From Polyangiaceae bacterium (lineage in GTDB: Bacteria; Myxococcota_A; Polyangia; Polyangiales; Polyangiaceae), in assembly GCA_029941785.1 (NCBI GenBank), contig JAPYTK010000040.1:1-32375 (forward strand): 32,375 bases of DNA. Direction: 5' to 3'. The notes under the pieces are model-generated. The model saw nothing but the letters and a program-made list of their open reading frames with translations. It was not told the origin of the DNA and ran no database searches. Within the stretch, counting starts at the first letter, position 1, and every line of letters begins with the position of its first letter. Made by a program: the position numbers and the translations under genes. Positions 7,574-16,415 of the stretch are shown here, piece by piece.

Positions 7574-9598
7574 TCAGGCGTTCAAGCCGAGCCGTTCGAG
7601 CAGAGGACCCTGCTCTGGCTCGCGGCCCATGAACTGTTGAAACAAGGTGGCGGGATCTTCTTCATCGCCCCGGGCCAGGACGGTATCTCGAAACGCGGAG
7701 CCAGTCTGAGAATTGAAGATCCCCTCCTTCTTGAACCGCGTGAAGGCGTCCGCGTCGAGGACCTCCGCCCACTTGTAGCTGTAATAGCCGGCGGCATAAC
7801 CAATCGGGTCGCCAAACAGATGGTCGAAGGCGGCGATGATGGCGTAGTCCTGCGGCAAGGGTACCGGTGAGTGGGCCTGCAGGACGTCCCGGGCAAAACT
7901 CACCGGATCACGCTCAGGGTCGTCGTCGATGTGTAACCGTAGATCGACTGTGGCGAGCCCCAACTGTCGCATCTGCCCATTGGCCGCGCGAAAGGTTCTC
8001 GCGCGACTCATCGACTCGATCAAATCGTCGGGGATCGTTTCCCCGCTTTCGGGGTGGCGCGCAAAGCGGTCCAGCGCCGCGCGTTCCCAACACCAGTTTT
8101 CGAATATCTGCGATGGAAGCTCCACGAAATCCCAGGCGACGCTCGTTCCCACCTGGCTGCGGATCTCCGCCGTGCTCAGGCAGTGGTGCATCAGATGACC
8201 GAACTCGTGAAAGAGCGTTTCCACCTCGCGATGGGTCAGCTGGGGCTCGCCGTCAGCCACTGCGGGTGTGACGTTGGCCGCGAGCAAACCAAGATGCGGC
8301 CAGTCATTCGGCGTGCCCCCGTGACGAGCGAGTAGTCCGTTCATCCACGCTCCGCCCTGCTTGTTTTCGCGCGGAAAGGCATCGACGTAGATCCCCGCGA
8401 TCCACCTGCCCTCCGGATCCAAGATCTTGTACGCGCGGACGGAGTCGTCCCAGCTCGGCGCGTCTGCCCATGGCTTGAACCGTATGCTGTAGAGTGATGC
8501 GGCGATGTCGAAGAGCCCCCCGATGACCCGATCGAATCGAAAGTAGGGACGCAGGACTTCGTCGTCGAATTGGTACCGCGCGAGCCGAAACTTCTCTGCA
8601 TGGTAGGCGAGGTCCCATGCCTGAAGCGTGACGTCGGATCCCAAGGCACCCTGGCAGTGGGCAAGCAATGCCTCGTTTTCTGCCTGAAAATAATCCAGGG
8701 TTGTTTTCTTTAGGTCTTCTACGAACCGGCTCGCTCGCTCGCCGCTTTTGGCCATTCGTTCCTCGGTGACGAAATCGGCGAAATGCTCAAATCCAAGCAG
8801 CTTGGCTTTCTCGGATCTCAAGGCGACGATGGCCCGCACAAGAGGACGGTTGTCGTGCTCCTCGGAGCTGCAGCGGGCCGTCATGCCCCGATACATGGCC
8901 TCGCGAAGATCTCGATCGTCGAGGTGCTTCATGGCCGCGATATAGCTCGGAGCTTGGAGGGTGAAACGATAGCCGCTCTGTCCCTTGCTTTCTGCACTTT
9001 GGCGGGCGGCGGACTTGGCGCTCTCGGGCAAGCCTCTCAGGCGTGTCTCGTCTTCGATCAAGAGTTCGAATGCGTGGGTAGCGTCGAGCACATTCTGCGA
9101 AAACTGTAGGCAGTATTTGGTGAGCGCGACCTCAATTTCAGTGAGCCTCTGCTTACCGGCATCGCCCAAGGCGGCTCCATGGCGGCGGAAGTAGCTCGCC
9201 CACTTTTTGACGCAACGTTCGCGTGGCCCCTGCAAAGATCGGGCGTCTTCTGTCGCGAGGTAATCCTTGAGCGCCTGATACAGTCCGGAGGACAGAGGGA
9301 TCGAGCTGCAGAGTTCACTGACTCGAGGCTTGGCCGCGTTGATCGCTTCACGCAAGGCAGCGGAGCTCGCCGTGCTCTCGAGGTGGGAGACGATGCCGAT
9401 GGCGTAGTCGAGGTTTTCTGTGATCGCCTCGAGGGCGAGGATCGTGTTGTCGAAGCAGCGTGGCGCGTCGTCACGGACGATGGCATCGATTCGAGAGCGA
9501 GCTTCATGCAACAGGGTGTCGATGGCGGGCGCGACGTGCTGTGCGTTCACACGGTCGTAGGGGATCGGAAAGGCGGGCTTGAGGAGCGGGTTGTCCAT
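7574..9598 (-). CDS. prlC: Oligopeptidase A, M3 family zinc metallopeptidase
   Basis: This is a cytoplasmic metallopeptidase that degrades short peptides, including cleaved signal peptides in characterised relatives. The zinc motif HEFGH is at residues 464-468, and the third ligand is probably E493 in DFVELPSQIFENW. The long helical N-terminal domain and the AGIYVDAFPRENKQGGAWM segment (401-419) are typical of M3A enzymes. The length of 674 aa is normal and no signal peptide is seen. It ends 12 bp from the convergent aminotransferase gene and is divergent from the di-iron protein gene across 108 bp. Confidence 0.95.
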   Translation of the reverse strand: MDNPLLKPAFPIPYDRVNAQHVAPAIDTLLHEARSRIDAIVRDDAPRCFDNTILALEAITENLDYAIGIVSHLESTASSAALREAINAAKPRVSELCSSIPLSSGLYQALKDYLATEDARSLQGPRERCVKKWASYFRRHGAALGDAGKQRLTEIEVALTKYCLQFSQNVLDATHAFELLIEDETRLRGLPESAKSAARQSAESKGQSGYRFTLQAPSYIAAMKHLDDRDLREAMYRGMTARCSSEEHDNRPLVRAIVALRSEKAKLLGFEHFADFVTEERMAKSGERASRFVEDLKKTTLDYFQAENEALLAHCQGALGSDVTLQAWDLAYHAEKFRLARYQFDDEVLRPYFRFDRVIGGLFDIAASLYSIRFKPWADAPSWDDSVRAYKILDPEGRWIAGIYVDAFPRENKQGGAWMNGLLARHGGTPNDWPHLGLLAANVTPAVADGEPQLTHREVETLFHEFGHLMHHCLSTAEIRSQVGTSVAWDFVELPSQIFENWCWERAALDRFARHPESGETIPDDLIESMSRARTFRAANGQMRQLGLATVDLRLHIDDDPERDPVSFARDVLQAHSPVPLPQDYAIIAAFDHLFGDPIGYAAGYYSYKWAEVLDADAFTRFKKEGIFNSQTGSAFRDTVLARGDEEDPATLFQQFMGREPEQGPLLERLGLNA

Positions 9599-9676
9599 GC
9601 GGTAACGATGCTGGCGTGCCTTGGCAGGTGGTGCAACGGCTCTTGGTATCTGCCCGCTGACAGTATACGATTTGAT

Positions 9677-9696
9677 GGTGGTCGGGGGGAACCACC
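9677..9696 (+). promoter_or_regulatory. Hairpin directly upstream of the ribosome-binding site of the di-iron protein gene
   Basis: GGTGGT (9677-9682) and ACCACC (9691-9696) are perfect complements separated by eight bases. They are followed immediately by GGAG (9697-9700), six bases before the ATG at 9707. A stem ending at the Shine-Dalgarno could modulate translation. No regulator or ligand is identified. Confidence 0.35.
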
Positions 9697-9706
9697 GGAG
9701 TTCACC

Positions 9707-10774
9707 ATGCCAGCCACGAAACCAGGGGCGCCGCCCAATCTCGAATTACCTGAGCAAGCGACGGTTGAGCAAGAGCCCGGTGCCGGCGGTCTGGACATTC
9801 GCATGCCAGAGCCTCCCGCGGGCAGCGATATGTTGGACACGGCTTTTTCGTCGATCCTCCAGTGGGACTACAGCGTGCAGCGCCGCGATCTCCGAAACCT
9901 GTACGAGAAGTCGAAAGGGGCCATGTGGAACGCACAGCTCGACGTCGACTGGTCCGTGGACGTCGATCCCGAGGCGGAAAATACGCCCAACGAGATGGTG
10001 CCGATCTTTGGAACCCCCATGTGGGACAAGCTCGACAAGAAGCGGGAGCTCCCGAAACTACGTCGCCTGATGATGGGCTACATGCTGTCGAATTTTTTGC
10101 ACGGTGAGCAGGGAGCGCTTCTCGCCGCTTCGCAGATCGTGAGCGCCGTGCCCGACACCGACGCAAAATTCTACGCGGCGACGCAGGCGATGGACGAGGC
10201 CCGGCACGTGGAGGCCTACGATCGTTATCTGCGGGAAAAAGTGGGGATCACGTTTCCCATCTCTCCCCATTTGCGAAGCTTGCTCGACGGGATCTTGTGC
10301 GAGAGCCGCTGGGACTTGAAGTACTTGGGCATGCAGATCATGGTCGAGGGCTTGGCTCTCGCTGCCTTCGGCGTAATAACGAAGACCTCCCGCGAGCCCT
10401 TGTTGCGGGAGCTCGTGCACAAGATCATGCTCGACGAGGCCCGGCATGTTGCCTTCGGTGTCATCGCGCTTCGCGGAACCTACGCGGACATGAGCGCGTC
10501 GGAATTACGGGACCGGGAGGACTTCATCATCGAGGCCTCACGTCTGATGCACGATCGGTTCTTGGCGCAGGAAGTGTGGGAGCACATGGGGATGCCGGTC
10601 GAAGAATGTGTGGCCGCCGTGCAGCAGAGTGAGACGCAGCGGATGTTTCGTCAGATGCTGTTTTCGAAGATCGTGCCCAACGTGAAAAGATTAGGCCTGC
10701 TCACACCTGCTGTGCGCAATGGTTTCAACGAGTTAGGCGTAATTCACTTCGAAAATTGGGAAGCGTCGGCCTAA
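9707..10774 (+). CDS. Ferritin-like di-iron carboxylate protein (R2-like fold), function unknown
   Basis: A complete set of six candidate metal ligands is visible: E134 in FLHGEQGAL, E164 and H167 in DEARH, E214 in MVEGLAL, and E244 and H247 in a second DEARH. This E-ExxH-E-ExxH pattern defines the four-helix dimetal carboxylate fold shared by ribonucleotide reductase R2, R2-like ligand-binding oxidases and AurF-type N-oxygenases. The first 45 residues are Pro/Glu-rich and probably disordered. ATG 9707 is chosen for its GGAG ribosome-binding site and because the in-frame upstream sequence overlaps the divergent prlC coding region. The protein is 355 aa. No R1 subunit or biosynthetic partner is adjacent, so the substrate is unknown. 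Confidence 0.85.
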   Translation: MPATKPGAPPNLELPEQATVEQEPGAGGLDIRMPEPPAGSDMLDTAFSSILQWDYSVQRRDLRNLYEKSKGAMWNAQLDVDWSVDVDPEAENTPNEMVPIFGTPMWDKLDKKRELPKLRRLMMGYMLSNFLHGEQGALLAASQIVSAVPDTDAKFYAATQAMDEARHVEAYDRYLREKVGITFPISPHLRSLLDGILCESRWDLKYLGMQIMVEGLALAAFGVITKTSREPLLRELVHKIMLDEARHVAFGVIALRGTYADMSASELRDREDFIIEASRLMHDRFLAQEVWEHMGMPVEECVAAVQQSETQRMFRQMLFSKIVPNVKRLGLLTPAVRNGFNELGVIHFENWEASA

Positions 10775-10797: not shown

Positions 10798-13700
10798 GTG
10801 GTTGCCAGCATGATACGGCAGCGTATCATGGGTGTGTCGGTAGTTTCGGCGTCGCAAGACGACCAGTTCATTCGTTCCTTGGCAGCAGAGCTCGGTGAGA
10901 TACGGAGCATGTTGGAGGCCGTATTCGACGAGCCAGAAGCCTCGCCGCCACGCGAGCGCTTGGCGGAGACTCTGCGAAGCTTCTCCGCTGAGGCGGCGGC
11001 GATTGGTCTCGACGGCTTGGTTGAAGACCTGAGCGCGTGCGACGGCATCTTGCAATCGGCGGCGGTGCTGGGTCAGCTCGACTTTCATGATGGGGACTTG
11101 CTCAGCGAGGCGCTCGACCGCATTGCCGATAGCGTGCGTACGCGCCTAGCATGTGAGATCACCCCGTCCTCGGGCTCGATCAAGACATTGATCCCCGCCA
11201 CCGGCGTGCCCGGTGACGGAGAGATGCGGGACGTCGAGCCCGGTCACGTGTTGATCGTGGCGGCAGCGACGGTGGTTGACGGCTTGGTCCTCAACGGAGA
11301 AGAAATTCTCGAAAGCGGTCCTCCCCTCGCAATCGAGCAAGTGTCCGACGTCGTGGCCGGCCGTGAGGTCGTGCGGGCTTTGGGGCCCGACATCATCGTG
11401 TTGGACACCGGGCTCGAGGGTGCGCGGTCCTTCGTCGAGGCCCTCGTGAACGACGAGCTGACCGATGCCATCCCCATCGTCGCCATCGGTAATTGGGCCT
11501 CCCCGGAGGACGCTGCGCCGTACATTGCGCTCGGAGTGGCGAAGCACTTGAACAAGCCAGTGTCGCCCAGAGGGCTTCGCCGGGCGCTTGCCGAATTGTC
11601 GCCGACCGACGGGGCTGGCTTCGAGCCGATTGGTGAGGGCACGCTCGACACCATCAGCGCAAGATTGGCCGACGAGCTGCACCGCGGCCTGTGCGACGCC
11701 GCCACGGAGAGCAGCCGTAACCGAGCGATCGACGTGGGTGACGGTTCGGATGTTCTCGCGACACTCTGGTCCGCCGTGGGCCGGATCCGGGAGCTTTTGA
11801 CGGTCAAAGCAGGCGGTCAACTGCAGTTCGCATCGGGTGGTTCGGCGGAAGCTGTTGTCAATGGGCCGTGGATGGGAGGCAGTCTGTCGAGCCGCTTGGC
11901 GAAGCCGAGTGCACGGCGAGCGGCTGACGACGAAAGTCTGGAAGGCTTGACCGTCTTGGTTGCCGAGGGCGACCTCTCGATGAACTGGTTTCTTTGCGGC
12001 GTGCTTCGCGACGCGGGCGCTGAGGTGATCGATTCCTTTGATGGCCAGCTCGCGCTTTCGACGGCTTATCAATCTGTTCCTGACATCGTCCTTTGCGATG
12101 TGCTCCTTCCCAAGATTGATGGGGCCACGCTGTGTCGGACATTTCGAAAGGATGTCGTGCTGGGGAGCGTTCCCTTTCTTCTCATGTCGTCCAAAGACGA
12201 GCTGTTGCAGCGGGCGCACGAGTTGGGAGTCGGTGCGGACGCGTACTTGCGAAAAGAGAGCAGCGGCGAGCGAATCGTGAAGCACCTGTTGGATGTCTCG
12301 GTTCCGTCTCGTCGTATCGCTTCACGGTTGGCTCTGGGCGGCAGGGTGCGCGGCCGCCTGAGCGGGTTGAGCGTCTACAGTCTCTTGCAGCTCGCGTGCA
12401 AACATCGGCCCAGTTGCCGGTTTAACTTGAGCGACGCGACGCGCAAGTTTGAAATAGAGATTCGTGAGGGTCGACCGATTTCCGCGACGGTGACGGATGT
12501 CGCCGGCAAAACTGTCAGCGGTTCGGAGGTCTTGGAACTGTTGGTTGGTGTCGGCATGGGTCGCTTCGATGTCGAAGACATACGCGACGATGAGTACTCC
12601 ACCGTGGAACTCGACGGGAGTTTGCAGGACTTGGTCGCCACGCCGCTTGCGAAGGTACGGGGGGCGCAGAGTCTGCTCACGGGTAGCGGGCTTGTTGGTG
12701 TGCAGCGTGTTCATTTCCGCGATCTGCACGGCCGCGTGTGTCTCGAGTCGATGCCAACGTTCGACCGAGACCTGCTGTTGGCGATTCAGCGCGGCGCATC
12801 ACCGCGTGAGCTCATCGTGACCGGACAGGCCGCCGCTCAGCACATCGAAGCCGTTCTATGCGACGTGGCGAGGCGATCGAGCATCGTCGGTATCATACTC
12901 TACAACGGTACCGACGCTCTCCCGCACGCCATCGAACAGCAGTGCGCTCTCTTGTGTGGTTCGGCGGACTACAGCGCGGTCATGGAGGCTCACAGCGCCG
13001 CGCTCGTTTCAGTGTTGTCCAAGGTGCCGATGGCCGGGCTCACCGAATCACCCTTTCACCGCGACGAGACGCAGATCGGACCGGTCGTCACTCGCGTCGG
13101 CTCGCCGTGTTCTGTTCAACCAAGCCGCGGCAACACCGCTGTTCCGCCGGCGGTGGCCGTGCAAGTTGCGCCCGTCGTGGATGTGGGAATCGCCCTGGAG
13201 GTCTCTCCTGATCGTCTTGAGGACTCGCCAGGGGGCGACTGTGTGATCATGCGGACCACCACTCCCACCGGTGAGGATCTACGGTACAGGGGACCGTTGG
13301 GTCGACAACGCGAGCCGGTCATCATCGACGAGCGTCACTGCACACCGATCCTCGCCTCGGCCTCGGTGGCCTTGTCCGCGCCATGCCACAGCGAGACGCC
13401 CATCCTCGCGACGGCGGCGGTAGATGGCCTCGATTCACAACGAGCGTTGTTGGCCGATGCCTCCGCCTCCGCCGCCGACGTTGAACGACAGCGGAATTCA
13501 GAAGCAGGGTTTACGACTGCACGCGAGTCTATCCCGGACGGCGAGGACTTTCCCGCGCTACCTCGTTTGCCTCGGCCTTCAGCCTACGCCAAGCGAGCCG
13601 TGACATCCCCGGAGTCAAAACCGAGCCGCGCGTCCCGCTTCTTGTGGCCCCTCCTTTTCGGGGTGGTCGGAGTCTGCATGGCGATCGGAGCACGTTGGAT

Positions 13701-14097
13701 GCGTGACAGCGCACCGGTTCCTGCGCCGACTCTGCCCGCGACGGACGAGGCTGCCCCAGCCCCTCAAGAGCCGATCGAGAAGGCTTCTGCTCCCGACTCG
13801 AGCCAAGTGGACACGCCGCCGGCCGCTCGCCCGCAGATTTTCGATCTCACCCCCAAGGAACGGGCCTCCCTGCGCACGGGGCAAGGCCTTTTGGAGGTGG
13901 TGGCTGGCCGCAGGCACAAGATCGCCGTGGATGGTAAGGAGATCGGCGTAGGACCGGTGCAGAAAGTCGCTCTCGACGCGCGCGAGAAGACCTATGAGAT
14001 CAACGTCACGATGCTCGGCGAGCAGCGGGTACGCTACGTGAGGGTGACTATGGACAAACGAACGCGGATTCGGGTTGCGCCTCCCTGGTCGCGGTAG
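10798..14097 (+). CDS. Multidomain receiver protein: helical N-domain, two REC, PATAN (DUF4388), TM segment, C-terminal PEGA-like domain
   Basis: Domains read from the sequence (numbered from GTG 10798): a helical, Hpt-like bundle at about 20-120; a degenerate receiver at 148-268 with D203 and K253; a better-preserved receiver at 384-502 with acidic E390/D392, phospho-acceptor D434 in LCDVLLPKIDG and K486; a PATAN/DUF4388-like domain at about 515-595 (GRLSGLSVYSLLQL, IREGRPISATV); a further domain to 745; and a low-complexity linker. A single hydrophobic helix follows at 948-967 and a PEGA-like beta domain at 1030-1094. Receivers would be cytoplasmic and the PEGA end probably periplasmic, which is unusual. 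Starts at GTG 10798, ATG 10810 (preceded by GGTGG) or ATG 10828 are all possible. No cognate histidine kinase is in the window. Confidence 0.85.
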   Translation: MVASMIRQRIMGVSVVSASQDDQFIRSLAAELGEIRSMLEAVFDEPEASPPRERLAETLRSFSAEAAAIGLDGLVEDLSACDGILQSAAVLGQLDFHDGDLLSEALDRIADSVRTRLACEITPSSGSIKTLIPATGVPGDGEMRDVEPGHVLIVAAATVVDGLVLNGEEILESGPPLAIEQVSDVVAGREVVRALGPDIIVLDTGLEGARSFVEALVNDELTDAIPIVAIGNWASPEDAAPYIALGVAKHLNKPVSPRGLRRALAELSPTDGAGFEPIGEGTLDTISARLADELHRGLCDAATESSRNRAIDVGDGSDVLATLWSAVGRIRELLTVKAGGQLQFASGGSAEAVVNGPWMGGSLSSRLAKPSARRAADDESLEGLTVLVAEGDLSMNWFLCGVLRDAGAEVIDSFDGQLALSTAYQSVPDIVLCDVLLPKIDGATLCRTFRKDVVLGSVPFLLMSSKDELLQRAHELGVGADAYLRKESSGERIVKHLLDVSVPSRRIASRLALGGRVRGRLSGLSVYSLLQLACKHRPSCRFNLSDATRKFEIEIREGRPISATVTDVAGKTVSGSEVLELLVGVGMGRFDVEDIRDDEYSTVELDGSLQDLVATPLAKVRGAQSLLTGSGLVGVQRVHFRDLHGRVCLESMPTFDRDLLLAIQRGASPRELIVTGQAAAQHIEAVLCDVARRSSIVGIILYNGTDALPHAIEQQCALLCGSADYSAVMEAHSAALVSVLSKVPMAGLTESPFHRDETQIGPVVTRVGSPCSVQPSRGNTAVPPAVAVQVAPVVDVGIALEVSPDRLEDSPGGDCVIMRTTTPTGEDLRYRGPLGRQREPVIIDERHCTPILASASVALSAPCHSETPILATAAVDGLDSQRALLADASASAADVERQRNSEAGFTTARESIPDGEDFPALPRLPRPSAYAKRAVTSPESKPSRASRFLWPLLFGVVGVCMAIGARWMRDSAPVPAPTLPATDEAAPAPQEPIEKASAPDSSQVDTPPAARPQIFDLTPKERASLRTGQGLLEVVAGRRHKIAVDGKEIGVGPVQKVALDAREKTYEINVTMLGEQRVRYVRVTMDKRTRIRVAPPWSR
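10809..10830. promoter_or_regulatory. Perfect 8-bp inverted repeat spanning candidate start codons of the receiver protein gene
   Basis: CATGATAC (10809-10816) and GTATCATG (10823-10830) are exact complements separated by GGCAGC. Both arms contain in-frame ATG codons (10810 and 10828). It could be a repressor operator or an mRNA hairpin that hides the start; the sequence alone does not decide which. Confidence 0.45.
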
Positions 14098-14123: not shown

Positions 14124-16415
14124 ATGGAAGCGCTGATGTTAAGGTGCGCGGTCGTCCGGCTCGGGCTACTGAGCTTGTTGCTCGGTGGACTTACGGTATT
14201 GGGCTGCGACGGAAAGGACCCGTCGACGGGTAGACCGGTAGCGGGCGCTAGCGTGCGGGAGCCCACGGCCGGCGGGTTGCCGGCGGTGAAAACGGTGCAC
14301 GTCATCTACTCCTTCATCGATTCTCTGGATCGTTGTGACGTCGACCACCGGGGCCTGTTGCTCGACTTTGGCACGGACGACATGTCCCGTCGTTATGGCT
14401 GGGCCTTCACTCCTCCAAACGGGATTGTTCATACCCAACACGACGGCGCAAGCTGGGCGAGGGTTTACGAGAAGCGGCTCGTTGTGCGTTTTTACATGCC
14501 AGAGCCTTCCCGCGTGTTTGTTGCGCTACGGGCATTGGGCAGAGATGCGAGCCGGGTGCGCGTGTTGATCGATGGCTACTCCATCGCCTCGCTGCGCCTC
14601 CATCGCAAACGCGTCGCGACGACCAAGACTCCCCTCACCCGCTTGCCTCTAGACGCCGGCCTACACGAGATACAATTGCGCTTCGCGGGAGGTCGGCGCG
14701 CGACGGCGTCTGATCCTTTCGCTGAAATTGATTGGCTCAAGGTGGCGGGTCCCGACCGAGTCGATGAATCCTATGGTGCGCCCACCCGTTTTCATCTCGT
14801 GGAGCCCAAGGCGGTGGTCTCTAAGGTTCCCCATCGCGCGATAGCGTTGCGGGCGCCGAGCACCTTACGCTGCGCCCTGTTGATCCCTCAACGTGCTCGG
14901 CTTCGTTTTGACGTCGGCATGCGTGGTGCAGGGTCGGCAGAACTTACCGTCCGTCTTCGACGGGACGGTCGATCCGCGACGGAGTTAGCTCGTTTTTCGG
15001 TGCAAGGTGGGGACAAGGCTTCGTGGCAGGCGGTGGATCTTCCTCTAGAGGACCAAGCTGGCAAGGTCGTTGCGATCGAACTTGGCGTACCGCGGGAGGC
15101 AGGTACCGGGCGCCTCTTTATCGGGGAGCCACGTATCGTCGTCCCGGACGTCGAGTCGGTCGATGCGCCAGTCGCGAAACGCGTGGTCGTGGTGGTGCTC
15201 GACGGCGTTGAGCGAGACGACCTGCCGCCATGGCGTAAGGGCCCCACTCCACATCTCCCGAATTTGAGCATGCTGGCGCGTGATGCCACGGTGTTCTCGA
15301 ATCATCGTGGCGCGTCCACGTCGGTGGCAGCTTCTGTCGCATCGCTCATCAGCGGTCGTCCGCCTCTTGGACACGGCGTACTCGATTCGGGTCGCGTTCT
15401 GCCGACAGCGGTGGTGACCATCGGTTCGCTGGCTCGGGAGGCGAGCGTCGTGGCGTCGATGTTCAGCGCCGTGCCGATGACATCGCGTGCGTTCGGGTTC
15501 GCCAAGCAATGGGATGACTTCTCGTGGTATCCGCCCAACGGAGGACGCCTGGCAAGCGCGCCATTTTCCGATGCTTCTTTGTGGCTGTTGCGTACGGCGG
15601 CCAAGAAGAGGGCTCTCGCGATGATTCACGCTCGGGGCGGGCACCCGCCATTCGATATTACCTCTAAAGAGGCCAAACGGCTGCCGCCCAATGATTACGC
15701 GGGCTATCTTGGACCTCGACGGGCCGCGCAGGAATTGTTGACGGCGAGAGGTAAACTAGGTCGCCTGTCCGAAGCCGATCGGGACCGTCTTCGGGCGCTG
15801 TTCATGGTATCGCTTGCCGGTCAAGATCACGCCTTGGGTGAGCTGATCCGCAGCTTGAGCGATGTCAATTTGTACAACGACACGCTCTTGATCGTGACCA
15901 CGGATGTGTCTTCGGGACGTCGCACCTTGTTCGGTGATGGTTTACCTCTCGACGAGATGCGCTTGAAGCTGCCACTGTATGTGCACTTTCCCGGTGACCA
16001 TCAGGCTGGCAAGCTGAGCCTCGTTCCGACCGAGTCTTACGACGTGACACGCACCGTGCTCGATGCACTCCAGATCAAGGCGCCAGCCGAGATCAGGGGG
16101 CGCAATCTGTCGAAGTTGGTTTCACCGAAGCAAGCGTTCCTTTCGTCACTTCGTTTTGCGCAGGTCAATGACCAATATTCTGTGCGTCTTGGCGAGTATG
16201 TCTTGCATGGAAAGCTCAATCAGCGACCCCGATTGTGTCATCTTTCTGTCGACCCGAGCTGTGCTTTCGACCGTCGTTTTGCGCTGCCCCTCGTCACCGA
16301 TATGTTGTTTCGTCAGGCCGCGGCCTTCGTCGCGAGCGAGGAGCCGGCTGCGGGCGATCCCATCGTGATGGACTCCGAAACCGCCGCTTCGTTGAAGGTC
16401 TGGGGAGCGTACTAG
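14124..16415 (+). CDS. Lipoprotein with beta-sandwich N-region and degenerate sulfatase-like (alkaline phosphatase superfamily) domain
   Basis: A hydrophobic signal ends in the lipobox VLGC, with lipidated Cys28. Residues 60-340 look like one or two beta-rich carbohydrate-binding-type modules. From about 352 the fold resembles sulfatases: VVVVVLDGVERDD (metal Asp360), TPHLPNLSMLARDATVF, LISGRPP and HARGGHPPF. The canonical C/S-x-P-x-R nucleophile motif is absent (ASTSVAASVASLISG at 397-411 instead). The usual Asp-His metal pair reads TTDVSS, with Val595 in place of His. It is therefore probably impaired or altered in sulfatase activity, and could be a phosphotransferase variant or a binding protein. 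It lies 26 bp after the receiver gene and is probably co-transcribed. ATG 14136 is an alternative start. Confidence 0.75.
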   Translation: MEALMLRCAVVRLGLLSLLLGGLTVLGCDGKDPSTGRPVAGASVREPTAGGLPAVKTVHVIYSFIDSLDRCDVDHRGLLLDFGTDDMSRRYGWAFTPPNGIVHTQHDGASWARVYEKRLVVRFYMPEPSRVFVALRALGRDASRVRVLIDGYSIASLRLHRKRVATTKTPLTRLPLDAGLHEIQLRFAGGRRATASDPFAEIDWLKVAGPDRVDESYGAPTRFHLVEPKAVVSKVPHRAIALRAPSTLRCALLIPQRARLRFDVGMRGAGSAELTVRLRRDGRSATELARFSVQGGDKASWQAVDLPLEDQAGKVVAIELGVPREAGTGRLFIGEPRIVVPDVESVDAPVAKRVVVVVLDGVERDDLPPWRKGPTPHLPNLSMLARDATVFSNHRGASTSVAASVASLISGRPPLGHGVLDSGRVLPTAVVTIGSLAREASVVASMFSAVPMTSRAFGFAKQWDDFSWYPPNGGRLASAPFSDASLWLLRTAAKKRALAMIHARGGHPPFDITSKEAKRLPPNDYAGYLGPRRAAQELLTARGKLGRLSEADRDRLRALFMVSLAGQDHALGELIRSLSDVNLYNDTLLIVTTDVSSGRRTLFGDGLPLDEMRLKLPLYVHFPGDHQAGKLSLVPTESYDVTRTVLDALQIKAPAEIRGRNLSKLVSPKQAFLSSLRFAQVNDQYSVRLGEYVLHGKLNQRPRLCHLSVDPSCAFDRRFALPLVTDMLFRQAAAFVASEEPAAGDPIVMDSETAASLKVWGAY

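Follow-up and report, generated by a model that had tools for sequence, protein, structure and literature searches.

What can a protein do that carries receiver domains in the cytoplasm and, beyond a single transmembrane (TM) helix, one more domain on the far side? The question is raised by an open reading frame at 10798-14097 of a contig from a Polyangiaceae bacterium. The window, in what follows, is the whole of that contig, C40, which is 32,375 nucleotides long and belongs to a source assembly of 6.0 Mb in 415 contigs. A first-pass annotation of the sequence had described a helical N-terminal domain, two receivers, one of them degenerate, and a PATAN domain, all joined through a long linker to one TM helix and a PEGA-like domain, and had proposed that signals run from inside to outside. 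The order of the domains agrees with Pfam, with the family alignment and with orthologues of nearly full length; it is given, with coordinates, in Table 1.

Table 1. Coordinates in the window of the receiver gene, its parts and the neighbouring partner gene
Feature	Position	Strand	Basis or remark
Whole gene	10798..14097	+	1099 aa; listed start is GTG
Four-helix HPt-derived domain, residues 17-118	10846..11151	+	Pfam in orthologues, CheA P1 profile match, AF2
Phospho-His column, here Arg60	10975-10977	+	family site table
REC1, degenerate receiver	11239..11583	+	Pfam, family alignment, site table, AF2 (alternating beta/alpha)
Conserved inter-receiver helical segment (W, R, G invariant)	11611..11832	+	family alignment
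REC2	11953..12288	+	Pfam and family alignment
REC2 Asp434	12097-12099	+	family alignment
PATAN / DUF4388 domain	12352..12597	+	Pfam; DUF4388 in 20/38 orthologues
Helical, winged-helix-like region 3' of PATAN, conserved to residue ~716	12598..12945	+	alignment, AF2
Variable low-complexity linker, 231 residues	12946..13638	+	family alignment
Single TM helix FLWPLLFGVVGVCMAIGAR, N-in/C-out (predicted)	13639..13695	+	hydropathy, charge bias
PEGA-type beta domain, periplasmic side (predicted)	13873..14094	+	Pfam in orthologues, AF2, Foldseek
Lipobox-bearing sulfatase-fold protein, active site lost	14124..16415	+	26 bp downstream; Pfam, synteny, active-site comparison

The gene and its cytoplasmic domains

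The frame encodes a real protein. Its best orthologue alignment, with G002, covers residues 21-1099 at 41% identity (E 2e-207), and those with G026 and G001 are also near full length: with full-length orthologues, an assembly chimera or a frame error is ruled out. The frame 11146-12285 on the opposite strand is rejected as a GC-rich shadow of this gene's conserved core. Since similarity to orthologues begins only at about residue 19, the start codon is uncertain, and the true start is possibly an ATG, at 10810 or 10828, instead of the listed GTG. In an alignment of 41 sequences, consisting of the window protein and 40 orthologues fetched with their surroundings (more were added later), a conserved core at about residues 20-716 is followed by the variable linker, the TM helix and the C-terminal beta domain.

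The helical N-terminal domain can be described more sharply. Taken by itself, the window copy is not matched by Pfam Hpt (PF01627). Judged at family level, by sequence and model together, the domain is homologous to HPt: 23 of 40 orthologous copies match the Pfam entry (best 5.6e-7), the family profile matches the CheA P1 domain 1tqg (E 3.8e-4) with its phosphorylated histidine aligned to the family's conserved one, and the AF2 model has four helices. The phospho-accepting histidine, present in 37 of the 59 members, is absent at this site of the window protein, where an arginine (Arg60) is found, as in its four nearest relatives; the five make up a single clade (SH-aLRT support 99%).

Pfam Response_reg (PF00072) matches two stretches of the window protein, the better one at residues 386-497 (REC2, E 4e-19). 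In REC1, AAA replaces the acidic pair and Gly the Thr/Ser, while Asp203 and Lys253 are kept; across the family the acidic pair is inconsistent and the Asp is present in 49 of 59 sequences. By these residues REC1 is a pseudo-receiver, in line with the degenerate receiver of the earlier description. Most family members have a canonical REC2, with the motif DDD, Asp and Ser each in 57 of 59, Lys in 56 of 59, and the signature LLSWKEDLLQR. The window copy has Asp434, Ser464 and Lys486, but in place of the Asp-Asp of nearly all relatives it has Glu390-Gly391, and it is without one Mg-binding Asp. As a change of one residue in a draft assembly, Gly391 is possibly a sequencing error, yet the branch of the window protein is long (0.83). 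In another orthologue of the same clade, also on a long branch (L045:6694-10380, minus strand), REC2 is affected too, its phospho-Asp being lost to Gly. For the segment between the receivers we found no family match and, by profile search, no credible solved relative; its pLDDT in the AF2 model is low.

When the core was submitted to Foldseek, the matches were filled by receivers, so that the folds of the linker and of PATAN were hardly covered. In PleD it is the first of the two receivers that is phosphorylated. PleD (1w25), the best fold match of the core, likewise has tandem receivers, one of them an adaptor; it differs in being soluble with a GGDEF output, and in the window protein REC1 is degenerate. 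A pseudo-receiver is used as an interaction module in FrzS of Myxococcus xanthus (PMC11580455) which, unlike the protein described here, is a single receiver with a coiled coil, without PATAN or TM helix.

The PATAN domain proposed before is confirmed by a DUF4388 (PF14332) match at residues 519-600, whose 25.1 bits are just above the curated cut-off of 25.0. A profile of PATAN plus its tail found no credible solved relatives. The linker was also rightly called long, with some 230 low-complexity residues separating the TM helix from the signalling domains; in the family its median length is 196 residues, and its range 61-680.

The membrane helix and the periplasmic domain

Of the 59 family sequences, 58 have a TM helix past the linker; in the window protein it lies at about residues 948-966, with a mean hydropathy of 1.78. 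Lysine and arginine are more numerous in the 20 residues before the helix than in the 20 after it in 41 sequences, against 7 with the reverse (Wilcoxon p 3e-7), and this excess on the N side argues for an N-in/C-out topology. In a diderm protein whose single TM helix lies close to the C-terminus, the domain beyond it should be periplasmic. The inside and outside of the first-pass annotation are thus supported, and its cell-surface binding module is not, since the predicted location is the periplasm.

The window copy of this domain has no Pfam PEGA (PF08308) match. The assignment as PEGA-like is carried instead by 19 of 31 orthologous copies, with a best match of 1.5e-7, and by an AlphaFold model of the window domain that is all-beta, with eight strands (pLDDT 82, pTM 0.71). 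A pattern G.GLLEV...I.VDG..VG.GP aligns through most copies, and VDG..G.GP is found in the window copy too. About ten relatives are without PEGA (L049, L057, L060, L066, L070, L046, L050, L072, L186, L079), and either stop soon past the TM helix or bear an unrelated tail. Since these relatives keep the helix, the sequences indicate that PEGA is dispensable and the TM helix is not.

Foldseek places first, for the PEGA model, PpkA's periplasmic domain as solved bound to RtkS (9k1u, chains B and D), with a probability of 0.99 and a weak E of 0.06; the same entry came up in a sequence-profile search, at E 0.86. VIA-align gives middling Z scores, 8.7 for a hydrazine dehydrogenase chain and 7.1 for 9k1u, on a common beta-sandwich arrangement.

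A conserved partner gene and the spread of the family

An all-against-all comparison of the loci reveals one conserved neighbour: a sulfatase-fold gene present in 36 of 41 loci, in 34 of them downstream on the same strand. Two of the five loci without it are near contig ends, and G005 and G002 have the gene elsewhere. The spacing is commonly -4 to +40 bp, larger negative gaps at some loci being an effect of calling the longest frame; gaps this short in many loci suggest an operon, and the receiver gene and 14124-16415 probably share one. The partner family is found in 59/59 genomes, usually as a single copy in the window's family. No other neighbour is broadly conserved across the fetched loci, and none points to a pathway. 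Next door in the window, at 9383-10771, is an AurF-like di-iron oxygenase whose listed frame begins well upstream, at 9179; the window also encodes an MXAN_5808-type serine peptidase, as suits a myxobacterium.

The product of 14124-16415 matches Pfam Sulfatase (PF00884) at 4.6e-17, and begins with the lipobox-like LTVLGC, read from the sequence. It shares its fold and several conserved positions with the phosphonate monoester hydrolase/sulfatase family (4upk), from which it differs at the active site: Val takes the place of the nucleophilic Cys and also that of the CxPxR Arg, and Asp-Val that of the metal-binding Asp-His. As nucleophile, Arg and metal His are all replaced, the window partner is most likely a pseudo-enzyme. 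Other families of the order, unlike that of the window, largely retain the active-site motifs (IDTLRA, NWTKPS, TSDHGEEF). Sulfatase-fold genes with intact sites stand beside the receiver gene at L061, L063, L069, L071, L073 and L074, where NWTKPS has Thr in the nucleophile region.

A survey for the same architecture in Myxococcota, suggested by the first-pass annotation, matched 58 of the 59 genomes of the order; most matches are orthologues, and a handful extend only over a receiver. A peptide-pattern scan of genome contigs gave no matches when the window protein was used by itself, and found five orthologues when the REC2-PATAN alignment was used, its many other matches being ordinary receivers. 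Strong matches of the PATAN-tail profile come from the order and from one other family of the class (f20), and only weak ones from elsewhere in the phylum. The f20 proteins form one tree branch with 100% support; they have a receiver, the PATAN region, a TM helix and usually a PEGA-type end, and no sulfatase neighbour. Their neighbours include SIR2 and Lgt genes, which we read as housekeeping. From the sequences compared, the architecture is common to the order and f20, and the gene pair is seen in the order only.

In the searchable literature, mostly without subscription papers, "PEGA domain" is never joined with response regulators or myxobacteria, and DUF4388 is named in one unrelated paper only. 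The earlier statement that no described system has this order of domains holds within that literature, but the order belongs to a whole family in Myxococcota and not to one genome. The parts are of known kinds; their combination is order-wide and comes with a conserved partner gene.

What the pair may do

The Polyangiales family looks like a trans-envelope signalling scaffold, in which a membrane-anchored receiver/PATAN protein carries a periplasmic domain. Serratia marcescens provides a possible model: RtkS binds PpkA at the periplasmic domain, making PpkA more stable and more active (PMC6082577). In both cases a cytoplasmic signalling part is attached to a periplasmic beta domain, and a linked gene supplies a separate partner in the periplasm (9k1u; PMC6082577). 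The output of PpkA is a Ser/Thr kinase for the T6SS, whereas the window family has HPt, REC and PATAN domains; Pfam finds no kinase domain in the window protein, so that the two systems would be alike in how they work only. No sulfatase fold is reported for RtkS, and the structural likeness is one of fold only, and weak.

By analogy with this pair we tentatively favour, at a little less than an even chance, a membrane-anchored scaffold whose PEGA domain docks the pseudo-sulfatase as PpkA docks RtkS. The HPt-derived domain, pseudo-receiver REC1, REC2, PATAN and winged-helix-like tail would control a protein partner via PATAN, whose output state would be set by REC2. The TM helix would anchor the scaffold at the inner membrane, and in the periplasm PEGA would dock the lipoprotein of the next gene. 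That partner, in the window's family most likely no longer catalytic, would probably be a ligand sensor or an envelope tether, so that the system would serve outside-in sensing or tethering. Three observations count against docking. Most of the PEGA-less relatives still have the partner gene, hence PEGA cannot be the sole contact; f20 has PEGA without a sulfatase neighbour; and VIA-align ranks other beta-sandwiches as high as the weak Foldseek match.

The output of PATAN would most likely be protein binding, perhaps control of type IV pili as in cyanobacteria. The cyanobacterial regulators PixE, PixG and LsiR are not known to have an HPt-derived domain, a TM helix or PEGA. What they share with the window family is a PATAN joined to a receiver (PMC7690835). 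In Synechocystis, the PATAN of PixE has PilB1, a pilus motor, as its target (PMC7690835); in Myxococcus, SgmX, a regulator of pili, co-occurs with two PATAN proteins (PMC11580455); and the genome that holds the window encodes PilB. The link to pili, borrowed from other PATAN proteins, is a lead only. A frame of 744 amino acids at locus L001 (G000:C110:13417-15603) matches DUF4388 and, weakly, the N-terminal part of PilB, and is possibly a fusion of PATAN with a GspE/PilB N-domain.

The helix and PEGA might instead do nothing but bring a cytoplasmic PATAN regulator to the membrane or cell wall, with the neighbouring pseudo-sulfatase co-inherited and doing another job. This would suit the retention of the helix where PEGA is lost, and the few genomes, such as G005 and G002, in which the partner gene is not adjacent, but it leaves unexplained the tight pairing, with 4 bp overlaps, across many genera, and we consider it rather unlikely.

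The reading of the first-pass annotation, that phosphorylation of REC2 changes PEGA, and through it the lipoprotein, on the outside, would make use of a REC2 quartet kept in nearly all relatives and of a domain and partner that are both outside. Its topology stands; its conformational route would have to cross a linker as long and variable as the one described above, and the relatives that keep the helix without PEGA also speak against it. In the window protein phosphorylation is a poor candidate for the switch, with arginine at the HPt site and the second acidic residue of REC2 missing, though Asp434, Ser464 and Lys486 remain. It is one of several mechanisms, not the likeliest for this copy, and as a whole we judge it improbable. 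That the window gene is simply decaying in this lineage is very unlikely, for despite the long branches of its clade (0.83 for the window protein, 1.41 for L045), the lost HPt histidine and REC2 sites lost in two of five members, the frame is open over 1099 codons and retains all domains and the C-terminal APPW motif.

Under the docking model, the switch in the window's clade would work with little or no phosphorylation. A bolder conjecture, which we hold as doubtful, is that both halves of the pair turned from enzyme into binder in one lineage: a scaffold without its phospho-histidine and with a crippled receiver would be connected through PEGA to an envelope-sensing pseudo-sulfatase lipoprotein.

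Membrane response regulators with a domain on the far side are seldom met. The two genes make up a system in which to ask how cytoplasmic receiver/PATAN outputs connect to the envelope in myxobacteria, and a pseudo-sulfatase that has relatives with intact sites offers a way to ask how an enzyme turns into a sensor.
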